From the NCBI GenBank assembly GCA_002749535.1, contig MZZL01000409.1, positions 3,302,160 to 3,366,159 on the forward strand: 64,000 nt of DNA. Reading direction: 5' to 3'. Positions 1 to 50,270 of this stretch are shown piece after piece. The position numbers were made by a program, and so were the translations under genes. The notes under the pieces were generated by a model, which was not told the DNA's origin, did no database searches, and saw only the letters and a program-made list of their open reading frames with translations. The number at the start of each line of letters is the position of its first letter. The first letter of the stretch is position 1. This DNA comes from Apophysomyces variabilis (Eukaryota > Mucoromycota > Mucoromycetes > Mucorales > Mucoraceae).

Positions 1-897
1 CTTGAAGATGTGGCAGCAGAGTAAAAATCACCCACAAGTCTATGAGAAAAAATACAATTACATCGACCGTTGATGGGGGCAATCCAAAAAGATTATACAT
101 GTGAAGTACCGCTCAATTTGTCCATGTATTACCTTTATGTAAACACGGAGGCGCGTTTACGCAACTGTATGAGATTTCTGTTGCAATGTACGATGTTACT
201 GCGAACAGAGGCCACGCGATTTCTGGAGCATGCAGGTCTTTGATTTTGAGATGGAAGGGTACAGCAAGTGCCCGGCTTTTATCGATCTTTTGATGCAAGG
301 CTAAATCAACCCAACCAACTGGAGCAATTATGCGGCCTGTATCCGACACAAAGACATTTACTTGTGTGCCTTTTCTGCTCTCGTACTTTGTTTTTTTCTT
401 TCGCTGATACGTTGCAAGCGAACCTTTTCCATCTTTTTCCATGAACCAAGATTGGTTGGATATAAAGGTAGTAAAAGGTAAGGAATAAAAGTGGGAGTGC
501 GATCATGAATATTCAAGTCAGCTTAACCTTTATCCCTTGCTTCCCTGTGATTTTCTTTATTCGTATTGCCGCTTCTTTCTCAATAGCAATCACTATAACC
601 TAGGTTCTTTATACTTTGTATCCTTGGTCTTTCCCTTCTTTGCCAACCGTTATAAAGACTTGTCCATTTTTTCTCTGTTGTCCGAATCGAATTTTTCTCG
701 TTATCTTCTTTCTCCTTTTCAACTACATGAGAGCTAGCCACGATAAATAAAGTGATAAAGTTTCAGTTTTTTTTTTATCAGAAAAGTTCGCAGTCCAATC
801 TGTCAAGTGAAAATTGGACAACAGTTCAGAGAACAATTCGCATCTCACCTTTCCGTTCTACTTTTGAGAACTAGATCCAACATTTCTTGTATTTTGT
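1..897. other. Left flank of Fanzor A, no supported gene
   Basis: No convincing gene is seen. The minus strand from 442 to 113 has a 109-codon frame with a faint resemblance to a retroelement aspartic protease (a DTGR-like segment followed by a GxVDLAL-like stretch). It is isolated and unsupported by other retroelement domains. The 160 bases before Fanzor A are AT-rich and end in ttgtATGAACG. No terminal inverted repeat or target-site duplication was recognised by eye. Confidence 0.4.
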
Positions 898-3800
898 ATG
901 AACGAAATACAATTACCTACACCACGCGGTAGCGCCAGAAGAAAAAGGAAAAGGCAAACAGAGCCTCAGATATCCTACGATCAAGCCAAAAATACCTTGC
1001 TTGGAGTACTTTTACAGAAGTTGAAGAGTACTATAGCAAACGAACTGTGGAAAAATGAGACAAAAAATTCTAGAAAAACAAAGAAAGGAAAACAGTCTGC
1101 CAAAACAAAAGGAAAGAGACTGAAGGCTCAAGAAAAAAGGATGAATCGTTTGCGACAAGCTCTTGAAAAAGCAGACAGAATCCCTCGAGGAAGTTTTGAG
1201 GAAGCAGACAAAAAAGCGGGCGTCCCTAAAGGGACAATAGAGAAACAGATACGTTCTAGACTCTCGTCGTCCCATAAAACAGGCGAATTTTGGAGACAAT
1301 GCGCGGTCGATAACTTCGATGATGTCTTGGCTGTGGTCAAACCTGAAGGAAAGCAGAACAGACCCAAAAAGAAAGATGAAGACTCGGATAACCTTTTCAG
1401 GACATGTACAGTTCCTTTGAAATCCGTACTGCGGCCGGATCTTGACGAAAATCTGAAAAGGATTTTTATGCACACGGTAGAGTCGACGTCCGTGCAAATG
1501 ACGGATTATGTGTCCGACTTGGCAACTGTTGTACGTGCTACCATGTTGAAATACGTGTCAGTTTCCTTGTCTCTAGACCCAGCATCAGGTTCAGTGAAAG
1601 CTGAATTGGACCAAACATCAACTGGCTTCGATATCCGTACAGTTGTACCCAAAGAAAAATTACGTGACGAAAGTATGCTGGTAGATGACTATTTTGTACC
1701 TGTAGCCCCAATGCCAGATAATCTTTCGCAGTTTCTTGACGAGATGCCAGGCAGGCGAAACAACGATCTACTTTCCATGTTCAATGAGAACCATATCCAA
1801 TTTCTGCACGGGTTATATTTTGGCACAAAAGGAAACGTGAGCAAAGAAAAACACTACTTATGGATGCAGTTCCATGATCAAACTCTTGACAATCAGCCTG
1901 TAATTCCCGATGGTCTTTGCAGGACGTCGCATTTTTACATGAAGCAATTTTCGACGAATTTAAAGAATATGTGGGCAGGATCTCTTTACAACAGAAGCAT
2001 GAATCACTTATTGCGTGTTCTACTCCGTGTTAATCTTGCACCAAGGCGTGAAGAAAAAGTACGAGAAATCAGAGAGAAGGCAAAACTAGCAAGAGAAAAA
2101 GAAATCGAGCAGCAACAAGTGATCAAGTACCAATATCGGAAAAAAGCTATCAAAAGGAAATTAAAAAACGAGAAAAAGCAATTGCGAAACTTGAAGAAGC
2201 AGATCGAGCAGGAAGAAGAAGATGATATCTTGGTAAGGCTAGCCACGCGTGCGGCGACGTGTGCTGAGGCGATCGAACGGCTCGAAAACCAATTGCTGGC
2301 GCGATCGGAGTCCAGGTCCAACCCAAAATCAATAAAAGTAGAGCAAATGAACAACCGAGCGTCGGTTACAAAAGAAGAGGTAAACTTCATTATTGATTAG
2401 GATATATGCTTACGTGGCAAAATAGGAGCAGCAAGCGAAGATTTTGATATCCCTCGGTGAAACACACATCGGTGTGTTCGAACAAATAGAAGAAGAACTG
2501 GAGGAGGAGGAGAAGGAGGAGACAAGTGAGCCAAGCAGGCGAAAGCTCGGTATCCTGCAAGCTATTACCAAAGCCCTCCTACAGTCAGATAAGATCAGCG
2601 GCCATGTAACAGTGGAAGATGTGCTAGCTACCTCTCATGCGGACGATGCATTTTCTCCTCAAGAAATCGATACCGTGGTGAATATCGCAAACGCATTAAG
2701 GCCGTACGTCATTAGGGGACAAATTGCTCCTTGTATACCGCTGCGTCTCAATTTCGTAGTATTGGCGAACGCTTTGCTCTGTTCGATTGGATATCAAGAG
2801 TTCACTGCTTCGATATGTCCCACAATCAGCCCTGCTTCTGTTCACGCACTACCACTAGATGCAGTAGCCATGTATGAAATGTTTGGGTCAAGCTATGCCC
2901 AGCTTGATATTTACAAGGCAGACGGCTCAGTGTTCACAAACAGAGACGAAGCAATAGCAGAAAAGCGAACAGTGATTGGATCGTTTTTCAACGTAGAGGC
3001 TATTGAAAAAACATGCAAGGAGCGTGGGTTGGTACCACGCTGGCGCATCACAGTAACTCCGCAGAAAACAGCAATTATTGATGGTAACGTTTGTGAACAA
3101 AGAAGACCCATAGAATCACGGTACGAGGCGAGACGAAAGAAGTATTATAGGAAAAAGGAACCCTACGTCCAAGAGCCGAGCATCGAACAACAAAGCACGC
3201 CTGAGTTAGCAAAGACTCTCGATGATACAAAGAAGGATGTAAAAACTCTTGAAACGTTGAAATGTCAACACACCAAGCTTGTGAAAGAAGCCACGAAGTT
3301 AGTTGCAGGTTTGCGCTCTAGCTATCAGGAAAATCAAGCTATTTGTCAAAAGCGCATAAGGGACAAAAGAAAGGCAGACAAACATGAAAACGTTACTGAA
3401 AAGGAAGCAGCATATCAACAGCAGAAACTGAGCTATGAAGCTTTAAAAGCTGCAAAATTGAACTGGTCAAACCAACAAATGGCTTTGAATCAAGTACACG
3501 ATCGGTTAGCAAATGCAAGACGGAAGAAGTACAAGTTGGAACAGGTAACGTTGAATACAAACTTGCATCAACATAAAAGCGTATATTAATATACAGAATC
3601 GTACAGTTGGTGAAAGCGCATCAAAAGAAAAAAGGTAAAAGTCCTGCTGGCAGAAAAGAGAGAAAAAGCAAAGGAGAAGAAGACGAGAAAATGGAGGAAG
3701 CAGATGGTGATGAAGAAGATACCAAATACAAAAAAGAAAAGGAGAAAAAGAAGGACAAGCACAACGACAATAACGACGAGGAAAATGAGGAGGAGGATGA

Positions 3801-4968
3801 GGAGGAGGAGGAGGATAGCCTGTGCAGACCCCAAAGTGGGAGACGCCCCGGCTGTGAAGACAGCGTAGGCCGACTAGACCTTGGGCCACTTTTAGAAGAT
3901 CAGAACAATATACTAACGTTCAGTGGCACTGATTACGGTTTGCAAGTGCTGTCGACTACAGTGCCTATAACGAGACAAAGAGCAGATTTCCATTTACAGC
4001 TTTACAATCGATATTCGATGCTGGGTGTCAATAACGTCAATGATCACGATGATGATATCGATGTCTCTCCTACTAACATGCTCCAGCTACCAAAGCCGAT
4101 ACGTATCACGGCAAAATCGCTCGATGAAAAAACACTTGCAAGGACATTCCGCAAGAAACGGGAGCGACGAAAGAAGGTAAATAAGCCAGCTACAATATGT
4201 TGTGCTTATGTGATAATTGCCACAGTCGAATACAGAGGTTCTTGCAGCCGAAGAGCAATTGAAAGAAGCCTCGATGGAGAAAGCTATGTCAGTCCAAGAT
4301 ATTATTCGTTGTCAAAAGGTAATCGTTAGTCTTTTTTGGACAACTATCGATAACATACACATTTATAGATTGGTCGGAGCTGTAGAAAGACGCTCAGGGA
4401 TTTTTACCATTCAAACAGGTGGCACAAAGAAAAGGTGATACAAGATCTCTACAAGGAGAGAATATACGATAGAGTGGCTGCAAACGAGAGAAGAAAGATC
4501 GCGATGGAAGCGGGGCCACATGATAGCGGAAGGAGGGTAATACCAGTTATGGCGATTGGCACCCAAGGGACGTGTGTTGGGTCCAGATTGAAAGGCCATC
4601 CTAAGCGTGGAGGCAAATGGTTACGGGCGAGACACCGTAGGTACACCCCAGTGGCAATGACAGATGAGCATCGTAGCTCGCAAACATGCGTATTCTGTTT
4701 TCAGAAGATAATTCACCCAAAAGGGCGTCGTTACAAGGAAATTAAATGGCGTACTATGAATGGAAGCTCGCGCTGCGTCAACTCGAAGTGTGTTACTTTT
4801 AAAGCAGGGCGTACGACTCAAAATCGGGACGTTCAAGCCGCCGTGGCCATCGGACTGGCGGCGATCAGCAACCTATTTTCTGCAGAGAGGATAACGTTGC
4901 CACCATTTGATCCCAGCCATTTTGACGCTGGAATATCCAATATTGCCGATACCACCGTTCAAAGGTAA
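898..4968 (+). CDS. Fanzor A: large TnpB/Fanzor-like RuvC nuclease
   Basis: Model: join(898..2379, 2426..3544, 3607..4176, 4226..4318, 4369..4968), all phase-0 introns with GT-AG ends, 1287 aa, no internal stop. Seen: an N-terminal basic cluster RRKRKRQ; a block WAGSLYNRS...LLRVNLAPRR near residues 365-390; a Lys/Glu-rich coiled coil ending exon 2; a very acidic low-complexity linker (about 885-937); a RuvC-I-like SGTDYGL with Asp about 976; Gly in the usual RuvC-II Glu position (MAIGTQG); Glu about 1188 in TDEHRSSQTC; a zinc ribbon with Cys about 1195, 1198, 1224 and 1229; and RuvC-III QNRDVQAA with Asp about 1242. Family knowledge: Fanzors are eukaryotic relatives of TnpB and act as guide-RNA-directed DNA nucleases. 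The RuvC-I motif is less canonical than in Fanzor B. Activity is inferred, and the exon 2 acceptor could instead be 2440. Confidence 0.82.
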
Positions 4969-7900
4969 CCGACATATTTAAAGTGTGGCAGCTTTAACAG
5001 CTAATATATCTTTACTATAGGTGCGTACAGTCGTCTTCAGAAAGCCACCATACTGGTAGGTGTTACTGTTAGTTATCTGCACAAGTAATTTGCTTATTTT
5101 ATAAACAGGATGCGAAGGCCGGCATCTGTCGCTATGACGGACATATAACAGGTTTCTTTTTTTAAATTCAGTCTCATTGTGTGACTCACAACAATGCCTA
5201 TTATAGGAATTTGTTATACTGTGAGGTTTAACAAAAGTATCAATACTGGAGCCTTGCGGAAAATGACCAGTTACACGTCTTTTTTTTCCAACATTCACCA
5301 CCATACTGTTTATATTTTCGGCACTTGAAAAATATTACAAAATGCTCAAAATGCAATGAAATTTCCCGAACGGAATACAACAGGGAAACCGTATTGGTCG
5401 ATTCATAACTGTGTTTCAACACCTAACGGACAGTGGCACACAGTGTGGAAAATACGAATTAAGCCAGAAAATCATTACGATCATAGCAAAATAAAATACA
5501 AATTACCGTGATTAGGTGGCTTCTATGTTAATTAGACAAACTTTATGTCTATAATGAGCCAAAATTTATTTTAGGAAAAGAATCACATCATTGTTGTATT
5601 CAATTCTGGCAAGGATCCAATTGAATAGGGTCCTTCGGCGAACGCAGACTTCATTCATGGTTTATAAGACCGTTTGTAATCCGTATGAAATATAACTTTT
5701 TGACAAAGAATACATCCCGCCCGCCGCCGAAATCCAGGATAACGCACATATCCGATGAAAGTCCTGAAAACTAAGAGAATCAGGCTTCGGTTGCAGTCAT
5801 ATGCGATGGACAAGACTACACCACAGCGGACTTGAAGGATTACAAGGTTTGGTCATGCCCTATAAAAAGCATTATGGTGAAATTGCTCGCAAAAAATCAT
5901 ACCATATGGTACCTAACTTGTGCGAGAAATACTAACAGCGAACTGGGGGCTAGACGATGCAGGTTAAAGAATAGATATGAAGCACGAGTGACCCTGTATG
6001 CATAGTTGATGAAATTGTCTAGGGGATGTCGTAAGAAAAAAGCCCACAGAGCCAAAGAATTAGGAGACAGCAGTTATTCTGTATAGTCCCATCATTGAAA
6101 TATTCCAGCTTTAGCTTATTGTTCGTTGCTCGGCAATGAACATGTTAGGTTTCACTCGTGGATAAATTAAAAAGCTACTATGAACAAGCGCTAGGAAACA
6201 TAAATCAAAGTTCATTAAACCTAAATGCATGGTGTGTAAACCATATACAGCCTTTAGTATCAAATTTGAAGAGACATTCTTCATAACTATATGCATACTC
6301 TGTCATCGCAGACTTACATGTATACTTGAAGCAAAAACTATCCATAACTAGAATAAGCGTGCACGGAATGTCTGTACTTTCCAAAGATAACTAGGCCTCT
6401 TTATACCATTACTTAATCGATTCAGATCTCTTAAGATAAGGATATTACCATTTTCGGCCTGCAGGATGACCAAACGATCTAGCGTGTAAAAGGGCTTTTA
6501 CTTCCAGAGGTAAATGGTGGTCCATTTGGCCGTTGTTACAGATCGGATATTGATTAAATAATAACTACAGCAAGCGTGTCCTTACAAACTTATAAACCAA
6601 ACTATTGGTCTTTTATAGTCAAGACTTCGGGACGTGTAGTTGGTACTGTCCCTTGTTATCTTCTTTCTACATCTCCTCGGATGCTCCTTACTTTTAATGC
6701 TGACTAGCCGTCTTATAGAGCAGATTCAGAGAACGGACACTGGAGTCATTTCCACAATACTGGCTCGTTGAATGGATTCTGTTTCATCCTAGCTACACAG
6801 TCTTAATTTACACTAGATCAGTGCTATTTTGCTTAGCATTTCGCTATGTATTCTCTGCACCCGACACAGAGATCACAAAGTATTAAACGTACTCCGCACC
6901 TATACGTGATGGAGCTAATAGATTGCTGTTCAGTATGGGGGAGCTACGGAAAAATTTACCGTTTCCTGTTTCCAAAAGTCTGTCTTGTCAATCATGTGTT
7001 TCTTCCCAAGTACAATTGTCCTTTAGGCCGCCTTTTTCTTATAAAAGACATTTTCTTGTTACGACAGATTGCGCTCAGTCTGGGATTGCTGCAAACCGAT
7101 TTAGGTTTTATCATCAGCCGTATTTCTCTGCTCTTAATTTCACTTGACAAAAAAAGAAGTAATGGGCGTAGAAATACCATGATAGAATGATCAGACCTCA
7201 ACGTATCTGATAGTTCAAACGTGATGTTGACTTTGCACATGGTCAAGGTAAGTATGACATATGGTTTGGAATTCGTTCTTTTTTTAGTCAGTCTCATTAT
7301 CGTTTACCCGGCTTCTCCGCCTGCTGTTGTGTCAAGGATTTTCTGCGTTTTTGTTTTCCACGCTTACTGTTGTTCAACTTTAATCTCATTTTTGCTCTAG
7401 TATAGAGAAGCTTGTCTCGGCTTAAACCGATTCTTCTTTGATAACAGAAGAATGCGGTTTCTATCTCTCGCATCACGATTATCTCTAACATCAGTAGCCC
7501 TGCGTGCAGCATCGAAAATTTATCTAACTATTAGCGCCTGGAAGACTGTTTTGCTGCCCATTTTCGGGTAATGCATCAGTGGGAATACTTTCTCAGTATG
7601 CTAGAAACAAGTAATGTACTTTTTAAGACAATATGATGTGTGTCAGCGTTCTTGTTATACTATTCGCAAATTCTTGTTCTATATCTTTGTATGTGCTGCA
7701 TTTCATATCCTCGAAATCGGCAGCTCGATCACATTTTTGCAAGAGTTGATGGGGTTGTGGTGTCAAGTGACGTTACGCAATTTTAAGTTTACAATACAGT
7801 AAATATACCGATGAGACAACAAGAGACCATCGTCTTTTACGTAAACATAGCATATAAAGGAAGATACCATTATCAAATTGAAGCTAAAGAAGACGTTCTT

Positions 7901-18161: not shown

Positions 18162-18417
18162 ATTCTTCTATTCTCTTCCTTTATTTTTCTTTTTATTACC
18201 CTCGCATTTTCTTGCTTTATTTGTTCTTTCTATTTTCCTTTTGCACGTTTTACACTAGATGCCTGCTTTTTTCTTTTTTCTTTTCGTTACCGAACATAAA
18301 AAACTGTTTATAACGATGGTACTCTATATTTGGATGAGTGGTTGATACCGACGGAGTATCTGCAAAAAATCAGTCACCGATATAGAGCAGTGCTTGTACT
18401 TACTAGGTAATTGCCTT

Positions 18418-21400
18418 TCACGGGCCATGCAGAAGTCGAACCGGAGTTGGTTGACTAGCAAATTGTTGTGCAAGCTTGTAATTGCTTGAGTATTGAGAGT
18501 TGAACACCGGGATTGGACTTCCATCACTTGAGACAATCATGGATACGCCTTTGAGTGCAATGTTCTTCGACGCATTGCCATCCCGGTTCATCGTGCTACA
18601 GCCGTTGACAACGGTAACACAGTTGGGGTTCACGCAGCAGACAGCTCCATTACACTTCCTGACCTTGCCGTCCTTCCCTCGGTATTTCTGTAACTGTAGA
18701 GGCTTGAGACACCAGTGGCATGTCTTACTAGTGTTGTACTCGTTCACAATAACTACCAAGCCTTTTCGTCGTTGTACTCCACGTAACCGTTTGAGTCCCC
18801 TGCGAGCATGTCCTCGAATGCGAGAATTGGTGGGCTGCCAATGGCCGTAAAAATGAACAGCTTTTTGAAAAATCATGTCTGGGGGGAAGTGCATACGTTC
18901 GATGTCAGCATACTTGTGGTATGCTTTCTGGGTAAACACCTCTCTAGTACGCTTTTCACGTTCAATTCTCCTGTTCTCAGCTTCGGTTCCCTCTTTCTCA
19001 GCATTCTTGGCTCGTTCTCTGCGCAAACGATGTCTGCTCGAGCGCGAGTGATGGTTGACAGCTGATGCTCGGAGACTCCAGGTATTATAAATATCGTGCC
19101 GTAGCTCTGTCGTTGTGTTACTGGTAAAGTTCCGTATCCGTTGTATCATCCATGCAGATGTCGTACTTGTTGACACACCGGTGGTCCGAATACCGGGATC
19201 AACGCCGCAAACAGGGATCGAATGCTTCTCAAAAAGTGGCTTCACGAGAGACAGCATCTAAAATAGTTATCAATCTTTCATAATCTCTTCAGATTAAAGT
19301 GTACTTACCTGTGGCATATACCCTTCGGTGATCTTTGCTTTGGCAGATGACGTTGCTTGGCTACTGCGCTTTTGCTTTTTGCGCTTTCGCTTTCGGGAGC
19401 GACTTGTTGAAGCGCTTCTTTTCTCTTTGCCCTTCCCTTTTCTGCTTACTTCTCTCATCGCTTTGTTAAGGACGTAACGATCCCGTCGAGCTTGCTTGAG
19501 CTTTTCTTGTAGGACAATGGCAGTATTTTGTTTAGATCGGATTTGTTGCCGGGTTTGTTTCAGTTTTCGGTATGCCGTGCTATTTGTACGTCCATGAGCT
19601 GATGTGCTGTGATTCATCCGCTCTTTTTCCAAGGCACCTATTTCCTTTTGTATTGGCTTCAATTGTTGCTCCAAACCGAGTATGCTTGCTTGTGTGCGAT
19701 CAATTCTCTCCTGCAACTGAGCTTTGCTGAGCGTGAGTTCTATCTCGGGTTCCACGAATCTTTGATTATTTCGACGTTCTTGAAGTGCAGATACCTAAAG
19801 TTTGTATCAATTAACAATGCCTTCGACTCGTATTATTCACTTACTTGATGTGGTGTGTTTCGGTTGATAGTCCCTACGACTCGTACAGTCCACTCGTTCA
19901 CAAAGACAAGTCTCCAACGGAAAAATAAATGACGCCGATTCATCATGCGATGTATTTTGTCCATCTGGAAAAATGCTTTAAAGACGGTTTCTTTTTCAGT
20001 CCTCGCTTGAAGCCCACTAGTGATGAATTCCCCTTGTCTGTTTGTAGGTATATCAAATGCATCAATCATGATTTTGTAAATGCCGTCTGCTTTCACTGGC
20101 AAAGCCCATTTGTTACTTGTTTCGATCGTCAGCTTGTTGACACGATCTTGCATGCCCAAGATAGTACTGACTACGTTCGATAATGCCGCAATAGGCAATA
20201 CGGTAAGTATATGCTTTGCTGGAGGTTCATCAGGTTCATTTCTGCGTGGTGTGTATGGTTTCAGGAAGTTGGCAACTTTGGCAGCCACTTGTTGCTCGGT
20301 TATGGTCAATATAGTACCCGTATGGACAGCGTCTGCGACGTCTTTTGCACTTATAGTACGTTTGATCAGGGGGGATTCGACCAGCATACGAACAATTGCA
20401 ACTAGTGTACGAATAGTACGAGCACTGGTTTCCTTACTGGTTATTGGAGCTTGGCTACTAGTAGTAGCTGCCGTATCTTCGTCATCTTCAGAATCATTGA
20501 CCAGGTCATCCTCTGCTTGATCAAGCCTAAAAGCTTCGTACTCATCGTCAGCTTTTTGACTTTTAATTTCCTCTTCATTCGATTTCTTCTGGTCCTCTGT
20601 TCGATCTTTTCGAGGTAAATTATCAGCAATCTTGCGTTGAATAGTTTCGACCACATTATCGGGACGACCATTCATGTATGCTTTCTTCAGTTCCTTGGTC
20701 CAGTACGATCGATTGCGCCGTCTTTGTACATTAGACCTTAAATCTTGTCGCTGTTCTTGGCGATCCTTCTTTTCTTCGGCTTTTTCCTTCACAAGCTGCA
20801 TGTATTTGGACATGCGACGTGGCGCTAAATTTACACGGAGCAACAGACGGATGACATTGGCAAGAGATCTTGGATATAAGGAACCACTGTAGAGATTGTT
20901 CGCCGCAGTATACAACGCCCTTAAAGAATCGGCTTGAAACTGTGACGCTACAGCATCATCGTTGGGATCGACCAGGGAGGATAGCACACCATTTATGCTA
21001 AACCATGGTTTAGGTCTGCAGCCGAAAAAAGAATTAGCAAGATTACTATAAAATGTAAAACGTACATCTGCTCTGTGTATATACCGCCAACTGTGCTGTA
21101 GAACATGTTTTGGAACTGAGCAAAAGTGAATATGTTTGAATCGACAGCGGCGTCTGCATTAATAAAAGGCAGAGAGACTATACTGTGTTTAGCTTTATGA
21201 TCGCCAAAGTCGTAATCAGCAGGGAAAACGTCTGCTAGGTTGATTTGAGTACTGTAATTGTCATATCCAATGAATTGGTACACGTCGCCGCGAAGTACCT
21301 AACGAGGAGATGTTTAACTTCCCGGTAGTAAACATGTCAAACGACAAACCATATCCGTAAAATGAGATAAAACAGTTTCCATATTGCTTATCACTCTCGA

Positions 21401-22702
21401 ATTTGATTCCTGTGTCATCACCAAGCGGGATCTTACAGTATCAAGATCGATATCTGGGCGAACAAGTTTTCGCAAAGTTGTGGTAGCCACACGAACGTAC
21501 TCTTGATGGTTATCGTCTTCGTCATCGCTTTGCTCCTCGTCTTCACTTGGCTCGTCACCACTTCTGTTATCACCTTCACTATCATCACCGTGTATATCAC
21601 TTGCTTTTCTCTTGGAATCCTTGACTGATGCAGCTTGTATTTCGTGATCAGTGATCTTTTTCAACTGATTGCGATAAAAAAATCTTGCCATATCGTTCCA
21701 GAGCAACACAGGTTTATCCGGGCCTTTGAAATGTTGTTCAAGAGCAGATGGAGAAGCCTTTGTACCGTATTTCTCTTTCAAGGTTTTGAAAAGATGATCC
21801 GAGCTTCCGCTGCTAGTTATCAAACCTTTAGGCGTCTTGTTTCGGTTCATGAATTTCTCTTTGAATTTTTCTAAAGCAGCTCGAGTTGGATTTTTGTTTC
21901 TTGTAATTCTGGAAAATTCCAAATGTATCCTCTTATTGCTGTGATATTATGTATTTAGATGATGTTCAAGTAAAAACAATGATCATGCTTACATTTCTTT
22001 TCGTAACTCATCCTTAATAACTTCTTCTGTCACACCAAGTGGTGCACGTTGTTTTTTCTTCCTTCGCTCTCCCGCGACATTTTTCATGGTCGCAGCAGGT
22101 GATATAAAAGGTGATTTTTCGATTGTGGTTTCAGGACCCGGTAGCTTCGGAGAGGTAAACCTTGCGATATATAAAGGAACCCAACGACTGGTTCCCGTAT
22201 GAGAGTCCACTTCATGAAGAAGCGACATGTTATAGACTGACTGATTGTTTCGAATCACTTTAGGTTTGCTCTGCGTGGAGAACAGGTACACCCGAATGTT
22301 GTACATTTTGGCAATAGCAATCAGACGTAGAAGGCCATTTGCGGGAATGGTTTGGTTATCAGATAATCGTAGGGATACAGCATGCTGCTTGTCGCCTAAG
22401 CATCGCACTACAGCTACAGACAAGGCAGCCTCTAATGGAGAGGTGTTGAAAAGCTTAGACACGGTTTGTATACCCCTTGCTTGCAACCATTGTAGCGCCT
22501 TGCTTCGGTTCTCTTTTGATATTGGTCGCCCTCTAGCCCCAGCAGTCACTGTTTGCATGCACTGCTCATAGTTTTTAGTGGGGCTACGACTGATGACATC
22601 GCCCATACTAAGACCTGGGTTTCCTACAAAGTCCAAATTTGGCAGCTACCATATTTTTAACGTTAGTGTGCTGTGCTTGTTTTCTGTCTTTTACTTTACC
22701 AT
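18418..22702 (-). CDS. Fanzor B: large TnpB/Fanzor-like RuvC nuclease
   Basis: Model: complement(join(18418..19257, 19309..19794, 19845..21015, 21066..21298, 21350..21938, 21993..22645, 22700..22702)), about 1324 aa. Seen: RuvC-I VCGVDPGIRTTGV (Asp about 1065); RuvC-II region FYGHWQPTNSRIRGHARRG with Gly where TnpB has Glu; Glu about 1218 in VNEYNTSKTC; zinc ribbon Cys about 1225, 1228, 1253 and 1258; RuvC-III MNRDGNASKNIA (Asp about 1271). A coiled coil and a basic cluster RKRKRKKQKR (possible nuclear signal) precede the nuclease. It shares GSLYPRS...LLRVNLAPRR and downstream blocks with Fanzor A, but adds about 220 N-terminal residues of unknown fold. The ATG-only first exon is tentative (54-nt intron with ctaac branch site); an internal Met in LSMGDV is the alternative. 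All other junctions keep phase. Nuclease activity is inferred from family. Confidence 0.87.
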
Positions 22703-24675
22703 ATAACAAAAAAAATAGTACAATAAAAAGGATAAGTAAATAAGTACTTGAGAGTGCGTAGACAGTGAAGTGTTAAGAATAAGAATCAACTGCTGAAATA
22801 TGACGTATTTAAACAAATCATTTCATTGTGAATACTTCTCCTTGGATTGTGTAACAGTACAGTATAGTTCAAGACAATGAATCATTCTGCAGTCGGCGTG
22901 TCAAATACTGAAGATGATCACTGATAAAACAATCATTATATTCGATGGCGTAATTGATGTTTTTCCTTATGCAAACATCAAAAGGGGTTATCGTAAATCT
23001 CCATAATACTGTAGTTTATACAATAAGTACATATCCGATTTCTTAGCACTACGAAAAGTGCCCTTAAACGAAACTTCTATGGTTTATCTATATTCACTTT
23101 AATATATACACTCAGTGAATAAAGAAACGAACCAATAAAAGGTTCCTGCAAGAAAGAAACAGAAGTGAGACATTGAAATTCTTTGTGTAATTTATCTTTG
23201 ATGTGTAGAACGAGCTTTTTCTTTTTATTTTCTATGTGTGTAGTCTATTGCTTTCATTATATATACCTTTATATTTTAGCTACCAATGTTTTAAGAGAAA
23301 TAAAAGAAGATTGACAGTATCGTTACAGCAAATAAACAAAGTTCTCTGTTGTCATTTGTAGTTCTTTTGTTCCTGTTTAGTTTTAGTTAAAGGTGGACCG
23401 TAGATGATGTAATAGCATGGCCTATGGCCAACTTCGCTATCTACTTGCGAAGAGCGAATGCATAAGTATAGTGGGTGTGGGCGAGGAAGCGCTGTAGAAA
23501 GATGCGTGTAAGGAATGGTAGGAACCGTTTTGAGGATATCAGAAACGCGAGGATCCTGAGATTTTAGGATCTGTTTTTATATACAACGTCTGTGCGTGGA
23601 GAGTAAATGTACAAACAAATGAAGTACAAAAGATCGCTATCTTACTCGTCGCCTATACAGGCCAATCCGCACACAAGGTCATAAAGATCTATCTGTAACA
23701 TGCACTTCTACAGATAAAGTGTGTATATAATGTAAGGTTAGCATGTATTTTTCGATATCCGTCTAGGGAAAAAAAAAGATTAGTGATTCGGCTAGCGAGT
23801 GACAGAGATTGCGATATTTCTGAGCTATCTGAGCGTCTGCCAATGCAAAAATTGAAATAGCTTGAGAAAAGTATCAAAAGCTGCGACTCAGCTTGGTGAC
23901 AGAGCCAAAAATTCAGCAGGCGGGCTGTGACTCTTGTCACAAATTCGGTGACTCCGGCTGATGATACCGTACGTGAACGAGTGGCCAAAAAAAAAGAGTC
24001 TGTTGCGTACTAAAATAGCACGACTCACAGCAAGCCAAGTTATTCTATCTTTGAGTGGCCTACGTCATTTGTTTTTTTTATTTTACCACGTTACCAGAAA
24101 ACAAAGTTCAATAGATGGAAATTCCCTGCATGACGACCCTAATGGACAATGGGATTCGCCTTATGTCTCATTAACCCCGTGTTATTTGTTTGATAAACAA
24201 AGAGAAAGAAGAAAGAAGGGGGAAATTCAGGGGATACATTTATCATATGAACCCATTATTATCGAATGGGCCATGGGAACGCGGGAGAGAGAAGAGGGAG
24301 AACAATGATTCAGTCTAATGAATGAATGATCTTCAGGAAAACTTCGATGCGATTGCCTTTATTGGAGAAGAACCAACAATAACAAGGACAATAAAGATAA
24401 AGAAAAGCGCAGGAAATGAGCTAAGAACTTTCTAAATGTGCGACAGAGTAAAGGAAAATGAAGAGAAAAAGAGGAAATTCGTGGATGCTTCATGTTATTA
24501 GACCTGTATGGGTTAAAGAGATAGAACAAGAAATGCAACGATAAATGTATTTACAATGGAACAAAAAGAAAGAAACAAAATAGTGTCTATGGAAGGAAAA
24601 GAAAAGGAAATGTATATGATCTAATATGTATATATTTTTTCTTCGTTTTTTTTTTACGTGAGGGATATTTTTGTT
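22703..24675. other. AT-rich interval without recognised genes
   Basis: Two kilobases between the 5' end of Fanzor B and the 3' end of the next minus-strand gene. Very AT-rich around 22680-23350. Short frames only; no domain, RNA or repeat recognised. It should contain the Fanzor B promoter. Confidence 0.45.
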
Positions 24676-47381: not shown

Positions 47382-50270
47382 CTACTGGCTAACACGGCCA
47401 TCCAGGCCCATCACGCCTGCTACCCATCCACATGCCATTTTGAAGACAGTGTTGGAACCCTGTTGCTTTGAGAATCGCAGGCCAACCAATTGACTTGAAA
47501 CGGATCGCTTATGAACGATAAGTTCGATTGTAAACACTGCTACACCATCTTTCTTCTTATTTCTTGCTTCTTGGTTCTGATCTGCAGGTCGTTCATCCAA
47601 TGAATGTCTTTGTTTCGTTCGGCCAAAGAAGGATGTTGTCATGGACGATGTGAGCTGTGATATAAGCGGCAAGGAGAGACGTCTAGAACAACGCTGGCTG
47701 GGTTCTTTTTCCATGAGAACAATGTCTTCGGTATTCGTCAAATGGGTTTTGGCTGTTGTTTGGCTACTGCTGCGGCTAGTGCGACGTTGTATCGTTTGCT
47801 GTTGCGATGATGATTGTTGCTGTTGTTGAGGGTTTGTTTTGTCGGATGTTTTGCGTCCATCGCGTAAGGTGAGAACACAGGCAAGTTGGGAGGGTGTTTC
47901 ATGGACATAGGAGATGCCCATCAATTGGCAGGTTTTCTTCAGGAGATCCATGATATGTCGTCCATTTCGGTCCAGATCGTAGGCAAAGACCTGGGATTCT
48001 ATTGTTGTATCGTCATGGTTTTCTTCTTGACTTGAGAAGGAGAAACTGGAGGTGCTTTGGGAAGAGGAGAGTGAGGGGAGTTCGGATGTTGGTCGTCGGG
48101 GGCTATCTCCGCTATGGCTGCTACTATTGTTGTTATTATTGCTATTGTTATTTCCATGGACATGGAAATAGAAGACTTGGTCTCGCGTTAATCGTTGCAT
48201 CACCTGGGCCAGGCGTGGCAAAGCAGCGGAAGAAGTGGGAGTAGTAGGAGGAGGAGTAATAGTAGTAGTCATCATCGTAGCGTTCTTCTTTGTTAACCGG
48301 AAGGATGACCGTAACAGGGCTAACGTCTCCCATTTTTCCGCTGTGCGAATCCCCAGATGGCGTGCTCGCCCACAAATGGAACGTAGGAGTTCTGATCGAA
48401 GGAGTTCGACGTTCTGCTGGTGTGTGGTGAAATAGGTGGATGGGTTAATGGGGTGATAAATGATTGTCCTCTTGACAGTGGCTCGAGGAGAGTCGTTTTG
48501 TTGTTGTTGTTCTCGCATGAATTGGTGGCGAGCACGGCGTTCACGTTCTTCGTTGTCTCCCACTGTTTCGTCGTAAACCGTTTTTGGCATATCCGAGATG
48601 GGACATGGTAGTTGCCCGGATTGGGTCAGCCAGGGATCGTCACGGAGTGCCTGGCGTACGGTGATTCGTTTCCGGCGATCAATCTGTAAACATTTCTGGA
48701 TGGTTGCCTGCAAATCCTTGCTCAGATGGTCAGGCATCGGAAAGTTACAGCTGCATACATCCTTTTTAAGTTGACCAACGGCTAGAAAAGAAGAAAGAAA
48801 GAAGAAATATGTCAGCTGACGGGGCGTTCCCCTTTAGTGTATGTGTCGTTTTCATTTTTCTTTTCGTACTGTGAGCATGTGAGAATGGCTCAAAGCCTGC
48901 TGTCATACGAAACAGGGCGATGCCGAGACACCAGCAATCGACTTCTGGACCATAATATTTCTGACCGGTGATAATCTCTGGACTGTAATACAACATCGAA
49001 CCTTTTTGTATGAAGTGGATTGCATGAGTGTGTCTGTGTGTTCGCTTTTTCTTTGTCTTGGCTTACCGCAAATTGTGCGTAGTCGTTGTAATCCGAATCG
49101 ATTACCGAGTCCAAAATCGGCCAGTTTCACAACGCCATCGGGCGTTACCATGACATTCGGGGTCTTGTGGAGAAGAGCAAAGTCGTGAGCTTTTTTTTTT
49201 TTTTTTTTTTTTTTTTTNNNNNNNNNNNNNNNNNNNNNNNNNNNNNNNNNNNNNNNNNNNNNNNNNNNNNNNNNNNNNNNNNNNNNNNNNNNNNNNNNNN
49301 NNNNNNNNNNNNNNNNNNNNNNNNNNNNNNNNNNNNNNNNNNNNNNNNNNNNNNNNNNNNNNNNNNNNNNNNNNNNNNNNNNNNNNNNNNNNNNNNNNNN
49401 NNNNNNNNNNNNNNNNNNNNNNNNNNNNNNNNNNNNNNNNNNNNNNNNNNNNNNNNNNNNNNNNNNNNNNNNNNNNNNNNNNNNNNNNNNNNNNNNNNNN
49501 NNNNNNNNNNNNNNNNNNNNNNNNNNNNNNNNNNNNNNNNNNNNNNNNNNNNNNNNNNNNNNNNNNNNNNNNNNNNNNNNNNNNNNNNNNNNNNNNNNNN
49601 NNNNNTTTTTTTTTTTTTTTTTTTCGTTTTTGTCGTTGAATTTCCTCTGTATTCATTCTTTATTTACCTTGAGATCTCTGTGGACAACCCATCGGCTATG
49701 GCAAAAGCTGACGGCGGTAGTCAATTGCCGAAAGAGTGAACGGGCCTCGTCCTCGTTCAGACGGCCACCTTTACTGTGGAGATATTCGTCCAGGTTCATT
49801 CCAGGGACATATTCCATCACCAAGAAGAGAGAATCACAGGTTTCAAATGTCTCATGAAGACGTACGATATTCGGATGGTCCAATAATTCCATCAAGTCTA
49901 TTTCTCGTACTAAACGGGACATCACTCGATAATCGTGTGCTTGCTTATCAATGATCTAGATCCAAAAGAATAATTAACCTTCATGATCGGGGAAATCAAC
50001 GGAGGGTACTAAGATGGTATCTACCTTGATAGCTACTTCTTTCCCGCTCTCATTATGCTTGGCGTACATGACACGACTGAATTTGCCGTTTCCTAGTGGG
50101 CGAATGAACTGATACGGACCGATACCATTCATCAGCCTGTCCTGATTGGATCCTGAGATTGGGTTCGATGCGCCGGAAGTGCTCGTCCGGTTTTCACTCG
50201 TAGTTGTGCTAGACTTAGACGATGGTTTCTTCTGCATAGATCGTCTAATAGATAATGTGATGCCCCGCAT
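47382..50270 (-). CDS. Ser/Thr protein kinase, Kin1/MARK (CAMK)-like
   Basis: Model: complement(join(47382..48781, 48870..49001, 49067..49163, 49668..49955, 50025..50270)), 720 aa. Kinase core: glycine loop LGNGKFSRV about 59-67, VAIK Lys82, HRDLK about 174-178, DFG about 194, SMLYYSPEII activation-segment end, VDCWCLGIALF. HRDLKTPN replaces the common HRDLKPEN but keeps the catalytic Asn. A Ser/Gln-rich disordered region follows, and the last 120 residues look like a KA1-type membrane-binding domain (FTIELIVHKRS...LVGLRFSKQQG), as in Kin1/PAR-1/MARK kinases. The sequence gap lies wholly in the second intron. Start chosen at MRGITLSI; upstream codons have no ATG in frame with coding character. 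Substrates and exact orthology are not determined. Confidence 0.88.
49218..49605. other. Assembly gap (388 N) flanked by poly-T
   Basis: The run of N is bordered by 27 T on the left and 19 T on the right. It sits inside an intron of the kinase gene, so the reading frame is not damaged. True length is unknown; the other introns of this gene are about 65-90 nt, so the gap may be an over-estimate or may hide a homopolymer expansion. Confidence 0.95.

Follow-up and report, generated by a model that had tools for sequence, protein, structure and literature searches.

The window, a 64,000-nucleotide stretch of Apophysomyces variabilis DNA, carries on its minus strand a spliced Fanzor1-type gene at positions 18418-22606. 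Five introns, each GT-AG and 50-54 bp long, join six exons encoding 1310 amino acids. Exon 1 (21993..22606; residues 1-204) has a frame that is open in four copies of the gene, and our best guess for the start codon is the ATG at 22606-22604. Exon 2 (21350..21938; residues 205-401) is colinear in its 3' part with another Fanzor-like gene in the window, referred to here as the first gene, as is exon 4 (19845..21015; residues 479-869); between them lies exon 3 (21066..21298; residues 402-478). Exon 5 (19309..19794; residues 870-1031) is basic and coiled-coil-like by eye, and exon 6 (18418..19257; residues 1032-1310 and the stop) encodes the RuvC and zinc ribbon regions. A preliminary description of this DNA had proposed a spliced minus-strand gene with a GVDPGIRTTG motif, a zinc ribbon and an NRDGNAS motif, all of which are borne out within 18418-22606. 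It had also proposed seven exons and about 1324 amino acids, where our model supports six and 1310, and its tentative first exon, reaching to 22702, finds no support. Elsewhere in the window, a run of N at 49218-49605 may be an assembly gap or a withheld stretch.

The expected RuvC triad consists of Asp1051 in the DPG of RuvC-I (19198..19200), Glu1204 (18739..18741) and Asp1257 in the NRD of RuvC-III (18580..18582), all on the minus strand. Glu1204 occupies the repositioned catalytic site six residues before a CxxC and aligns with that of SpuFz1. The resulting DPG-x150-E-x6-CxxC arrangement is the DPG plus glutamate-six-before-CxxC that characterizes Fanzor1 (PMC10711439), and the protein also contains the Fanzor1 pattern D-X(125,275)-[TS][TS]-XX-C4 zinc finger-X(5,50)-RD (PMC3627910) through D1051, TS 1207-1208 and RD 1256-1257; our script used a looser pattern that began at an earlier D, and we inspected the spacing from D1051 visually. 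In its full form the published RegEx, which has two pairs of CxxC and is described as built to find related TnpBs (PMC10711439), does not match this protein, in which the second cysteine pair is spaced differently; SpuFz1 has a similar NPNC stretch. The score of the gene against the Pfam zinc-ribbon model PF07282 is about at the cut-off rather than clearly above it: 22.4 bits by hmmscan against a gathering score of 26.3, 26.6 bits in a genome search for the gene with its neighbours in the frame, and 26.0 and 31.9 bits in two relatives (P0002 and P0005). The NCBIfam model guided_TnpB, which is for prokaryotes, gave 15 bits against a cut-off of 100.

Similarity searches point to the same family. 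The RuvC exon matched a single PDB entry at E <0.05, the Spizellomyces punctatus Fanzor. This match (E 0.0046) covers the zinc ribbon and RuvC-III and aligns the same glutamate, and a seven-sequence profile recovered the Spizellomyces Fanzor again (E 0.0041). The profile also touched the mimivirus TnpB-like protein L79 at 0.062, with no single L79 stretch significant. A search of 5.8 billion proteins with the full-length protein gave no match among the 7994 best candidates scored. Of 548 candidates for the RuvC exon alone, six proteins matched; three carry the name Apophysomyces ossiformis, with up to 91% identity over part of the exon. In a scan of viral contigs two stretches matched, and neither is a relative. 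We conclude that this is a real gene of the Fanzor family of RNA-guided nucleases, and its putative programmable-nuclease function rests on that membership. Across the genome we found 73 PF07282 zinc-ribbon matches, the best-scoring of which lie at loci other than those of the two elements described below; by these matches, this one fungus would appear to hold many Fanzor- or TnpB-like families.

The first gene is a divergent homolog. Pairwise alignment found three colinear blocks: residues 334-636 (21% identity, E 5e-13), residues 644-980 (23%, E 8e-17) and residues 1126-1287 (31%, E 3e-18), although the comparison, made against six open reading frame pieces of the first gene, neither filtered low-complexity sequence nor corrected for composition, which makes the E-values optimistic where residues are mostly charged. 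Two of the three blocks lie outside RuvC. Low but colinear similarity had been claimed before and is confirmed. It is also correct that the gene is of Fanzor type, divergent but apparently intact, and that its homology to the first gene extends along most of it. The first gene is part of an element of its own (300..5220, plus strand) with 12 other copies, 98-100% identical over about 4.9 kb, and an end near 5220. Because the match starts at the first base of the query, the 5' end of this element probably lies upstream of 300. Both Fanzor genes in the window are mobile. Their proximity had been called unusual, but with about 89 matching loci in the genome, two within 15 kb of each other are at chance level (3 such pairs seen, 3.04 expected).

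The gene at 18418-22606 lies within a mobile element of 5627 bp, 18345..23971 on the minus strand, at whose limits copies with unrelated flanks stop; in the orientation of the gene, the 5' end is at 23971 and the 3' end at 18345. The RuvC exon has 115 matches in the 38.7-Mb genome, distant families included, which fall into 89 loci when matches within 3 kb are merged. The whole element has 56 matches, and at least nine copies, that of the window included, reach within 6 bases of both ends, a lower bound since 40 of 103 candidates were scored. Three copies are 99.5-99.6% identical to the window copy over the part compared, with no stop or indel in the exons. Reading frames are intact in four of ten translated copies, the window's among them, and older copies have stops, frameshifts or insertions; the translated set is that of 15 aligned copies less C33, C101, C75, C27b and C110, and leaves aside the full-length copies C52 and C70. 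Because the near-identical 5.6-kb sisters sit at three other sites with unrelated flanks, we regard the window copy as the product of a recent transposition. The preliminary description had cast the gene as an old paralogue rather than a recently transposed copy. The two families in the window are indeed old relatives; the copy itself is young.

A rival reading makes the gene an old single-copy or domesticated Fanzor paralogue that the host has kept. Among the copies, 635 of 1514 substitutions fall at codon position 3 (share 0.42), compared with 202 of 628 (0.32) in a noncoding control; exon 2 alone has no such excess (0.30). dN/dS is 0.33-0.70 over divergent pairs of copies. Comparisons within the set of four young copies, based on 0-5 synonymous changes, yield values of 0.52-1.50 where one is defined and give no sign of constraint. 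This pattern fits past selection on the active lineage and decay of the rest. The values for divergent pairs, together with the long colinear homology to the first gene, could be taken to favor this rival, yet the multicopy insertions with defined ends and unrelated flanks, and decay of older copies of the kind expected of a transposon, leave that proposal with almost no credibility, and for the window copy the young sister insertions already contradict it. The gene belongs to a mobile element and is of a kind already described, rather than being an isolated duplicate of great age.

Decay of one copy touches on whether an intact nuclease is needed for movement. Copy C95b has a 352-bp insert in Fanzor exon 4 with a 6-bp duplication, and at another site, C10, an interruption of equal size lies at the same place in exon 4. 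If the two were the same insert, a copy with a broken Fanzor would still have moved, and intact Fanzor would be dispensable in cis.

The ends of the element are marked by a 6-bp direct repeat, CGGTAT, at 23964..23969 (5' copy) and 18345..18350 (3' copy), both on the minus strand. CGGTAT is present at 18 of the 21 5' ends read and at 14 of the 24 3' ends read, where GGTAT is present at 19. A 6-bp direct match anywhere between the first and last 30 bases is within chance (184 of 500 null comparisons), so the repeat stands out solely because it sits at the extreme termini of the element. We found no significant terminal inverted repeat, and 13 of 14 insertions with both flanks read have no target duplication beyond 2 bp. 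The exception, C79, has a 10-bp duplication-like flank that matches at 9 of 10 positions and beats all 469 mismatched flank pairs. Flanking sequence has a weak A/T lean as its only target preference. An exact copy of the 17-base 3' end lies at C70:103391-103407, apart from all 26 3' ends that a 200-bp query recovered, and possibly belongs to another element type with the same 3' end.

These features recall CryptonF elements, which are described as encoding a tyrosine recombinase with a GCR1_C domain, ending in 4- or 6-bp terminal direct repeats, lacking terminal inverted repeats and target-site duplications, and moving as excised circles (PMC3212892). The terminal 242 bp of our element (23730..23971, minus strand) are homologous to a CryptonF element end (76.8% over 246 aligned columns), with the homology beginning at the first base of both elements, and a second homologous stretch lies at 23260..23395 (minus strand; 77.5% over 151 aligned columns). 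The CryptonF end at C43, a terminal 234 bp, is 77% identical to the first 242 bp of the Fanzor element, and a recombinase fragment there, whose sequence was read, matches NDC10_II at 7.8e-14 and GCR1_C at 1.7e-11. Mapped to the genome, this recombinase piece recurs at C77 (98%), C10 (97%), C120 (96%) and C58 (87%), and also, by itself, at C113 (twice), C64 and C84 (71-92%). C77, C120 and C58 have the C43-type end as well (84-94%); the end at C10 is of the Fanzor-element type (76%). A genome search with NDC10_II (PF16787) gave 41 matches, nine of which, at C77, C120, C58 and C10, are located 1.35-2.6 kb inward of 5' ends that are related to that of the Fanzor element, all antisense to the Fanzor orientation. 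The arrangement at these four loci is known from coordinates and scores. The fragment at C43 is a tenth match in the same arrangement, and the other 31 are not inside related ends, one of them (C78) lying 0.7 kb outside an end. PF16787 has no match in the window's element, which encodes no recombinase; because elements with related ends do have one, we describe it as a non-autonomous derivative. At C10, Fanzor-element pieces 1-820, 960-3174 and 3169-5627 flank recombinase matches over 8.4 kb, and the stretch corresponding to 23012..23152 (minus strand) of the window is replaced there, by coordinates, with about 2.5 kb containing the tyrosine-recombinase matches. By these coordinates, the C10 locus appears to carry both Fanzor and recombinase genes.

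The first gene's element may also have a Crypton connection. Window positions 300-490 (plus strand) have 79% DNA identity to stretches inside the best two CryptonF recombinase matches (C77 and C116), which may point to a remnant of a Crypton in the 5' portion of the first element. Scanned against Pfam, the reading frame at 113-502 (minus strand) gave no match.

Alternatively, the shared end could have arisen when a CryptonF element and the Fanzor element recombined or one inserted into the other, with some other enzyme moving the Fanzor element. Nesting does occur, as at C43 a Fanzor element abuts a broken CryptonF element; C79 has its duplication-like flank, and C10 is known by its coordinates, with its ends and part of its sequence read. 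We nonetheless hold this to be unlikely: the homology runs from the first base of both elements, an end followed by a recombinase recurs at C77, C120 and C58, and no second, closer CryptonF end was found at C10. Less likely still is a non-autonomous Helitron that resembles Helitron2, as the CRe elements of Chlamydomonas do, and depends on a RepHel protein for rolling-circle movement. The genome does contain Helitron_like_N matches, some in long open frames, most copies lack target-site duplications, and the 5' end of the element starts with T and folds better as DNA than do shuffled sequences (z -2.6). The two ends also share an asymmetric inverted repeat of 9 bp, but it is within chance (47 of 500 null comparisons at 50 bp and 87 of 500 at 60 bp). 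By position, 0 of 28 PF14214 matches lie within 10 kb of the element ends found, whereas CryptonF recombinase matches do lie near them, with a homologous end, and there is no excess of 3' ends (26 of them, against 31 5' ends). We therefore set a Helitron origin aside, as the asymmetric terminal inverted repeats of Helitron2 were not found, nor, in a comparison of loci by position, an end shared with RepHel elements. One-ended transposition, considered from the truncated copies C27b and C75, was dropped in view of the similar numbers of 5' and 3' ends.

The explanation we consider probable is that a gene for a Fanzor1-type predicted RNA-guided nuclease is carried by a recently active, non-autonomous CryptonF derivative. 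In the mechanism we infer, a tyrosine recombinase of the CryptonF type would recombine the two terminal CGGTAT direct repeats, and the circle so excised would insert elsewhere; the enzyme would come in trans from related elements or, in the apparent composite of 8.4 kb, be encoded in cis. A guide RNA read from the 3' end of the element into flanking DNA could then direct the loaded Fanzor to cut the resealed donor site, the target-adjacent motif of the nuclease lying within the CGGTAT core, and repair from an intact copy would restore the element. Neither folding nor conservation gave a guide-RNA signal at the 3' end: folding is no better than that of shuffled sequences (z +0.39 and +1.07), and the 73 noncoding 3' bases, with a divergence of 0.077 compared with 0.062-0.107 in 5' noncoding stretches, are not specially conserved. 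A further proposal, which we offer as speculation with the odds against it, is that this double-length Fanzor is adapted to a tyrosine-recombinase transposon, such that the CGGTAT crossover core doubles as the target-adjacent motif and the several hundred additional residues that precede RuvC act in the partnership with the recombinase. Were this true, autonomous two-enzyme composites would be a eukaryotic counterpart of IS607 that uses a tyrosine recombinase where IS607 uses a serine one.

Many transposon types carry Fanzor1 genes, frequently with no visible transposase, and the element is a well-delimited member of this known kind with an unusual protein length. Crypton recombinases are among the Fanzor1-associated transposases (PMC10711439), and Fanzor biochemistry has been described (PMC10432273, PMC11423790). 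The Spizellomyces punctatus Fanzor likewise has a RuvC with a repositioned glutamate, a zinc ribbon and an RD motif, and is found on a multicopy fungal transposon (PMC10432273, PMC3627910). SPu-1-1p is 633 amino acids in one open reading frame (PMC3627910), compared with 1310 in six exons here; the window element has no significant terminal inverted repeats, unlike that of Spizellomyces, and pairwise similarity, with the RuvC exon as query, was found only in the C-terminal part. Closer in host are the Fanzor1 families of Mucor, Rhizopus and Phycomyces, which include MCi-2 (PMC3627910). MCi-2 of Mucor circinelloides is, like our element, from Mucorales, lacks terminal inverted repeats and has near-identical Fanzor parts among copies, and MCi-2A has a partial Crypton gene; 11-12 bp target-site duplications and fuzzy 5' ends are described for MCi-2, and its Crypton membership was left uncertain (PMC3627910). 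In contrast, the ends of the window element are sharp, 13 of 14 insertions lack target-site duplications, and one end matches that of recombinase-coding elements. Relative to CryptonF, the window element shares the short terminal direct repeats, the lack of terminal inverted repeats and an end in common with NDC10_II and GCR1_C elements, and differs in having a Fanzor and no recombinase; the part of PMC3212892 drawn on here does not mention Fanzor as CryptonF cargo. The element would bear on the doubt, dating from 2013, over Crypton membership of mucoralean Fanzor elements (PMC3627910). Its sharp termini, its young copies with intact frames, the candidate partner recombinases and a short direct repeat at its junctions make it a testable case for Fanzor-mediated retention, specifically whether Fanzor cuts the resealed donor site beside the crossover core.

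Several copies have junctions of their own interest. Two 1.18-kb 5'-truncated copies (L044:4316 and L048:4316) begin at the same element position, 4446, and share the 13-mer ATACTGTGAAGGT, which one has at its 3' end and the other at its 5' junction. Adjoining a truncated copy is a 327-amino-acid frame, Tc1/mariner-transposase-like by eye (L044:5764-6744, plus strand). At L061 and L062 (C6:962 and C110:56310), copies of unequal divergence have about 96 bp of identical 5' flank, which runs up to the final four bases before the element; those four differ.
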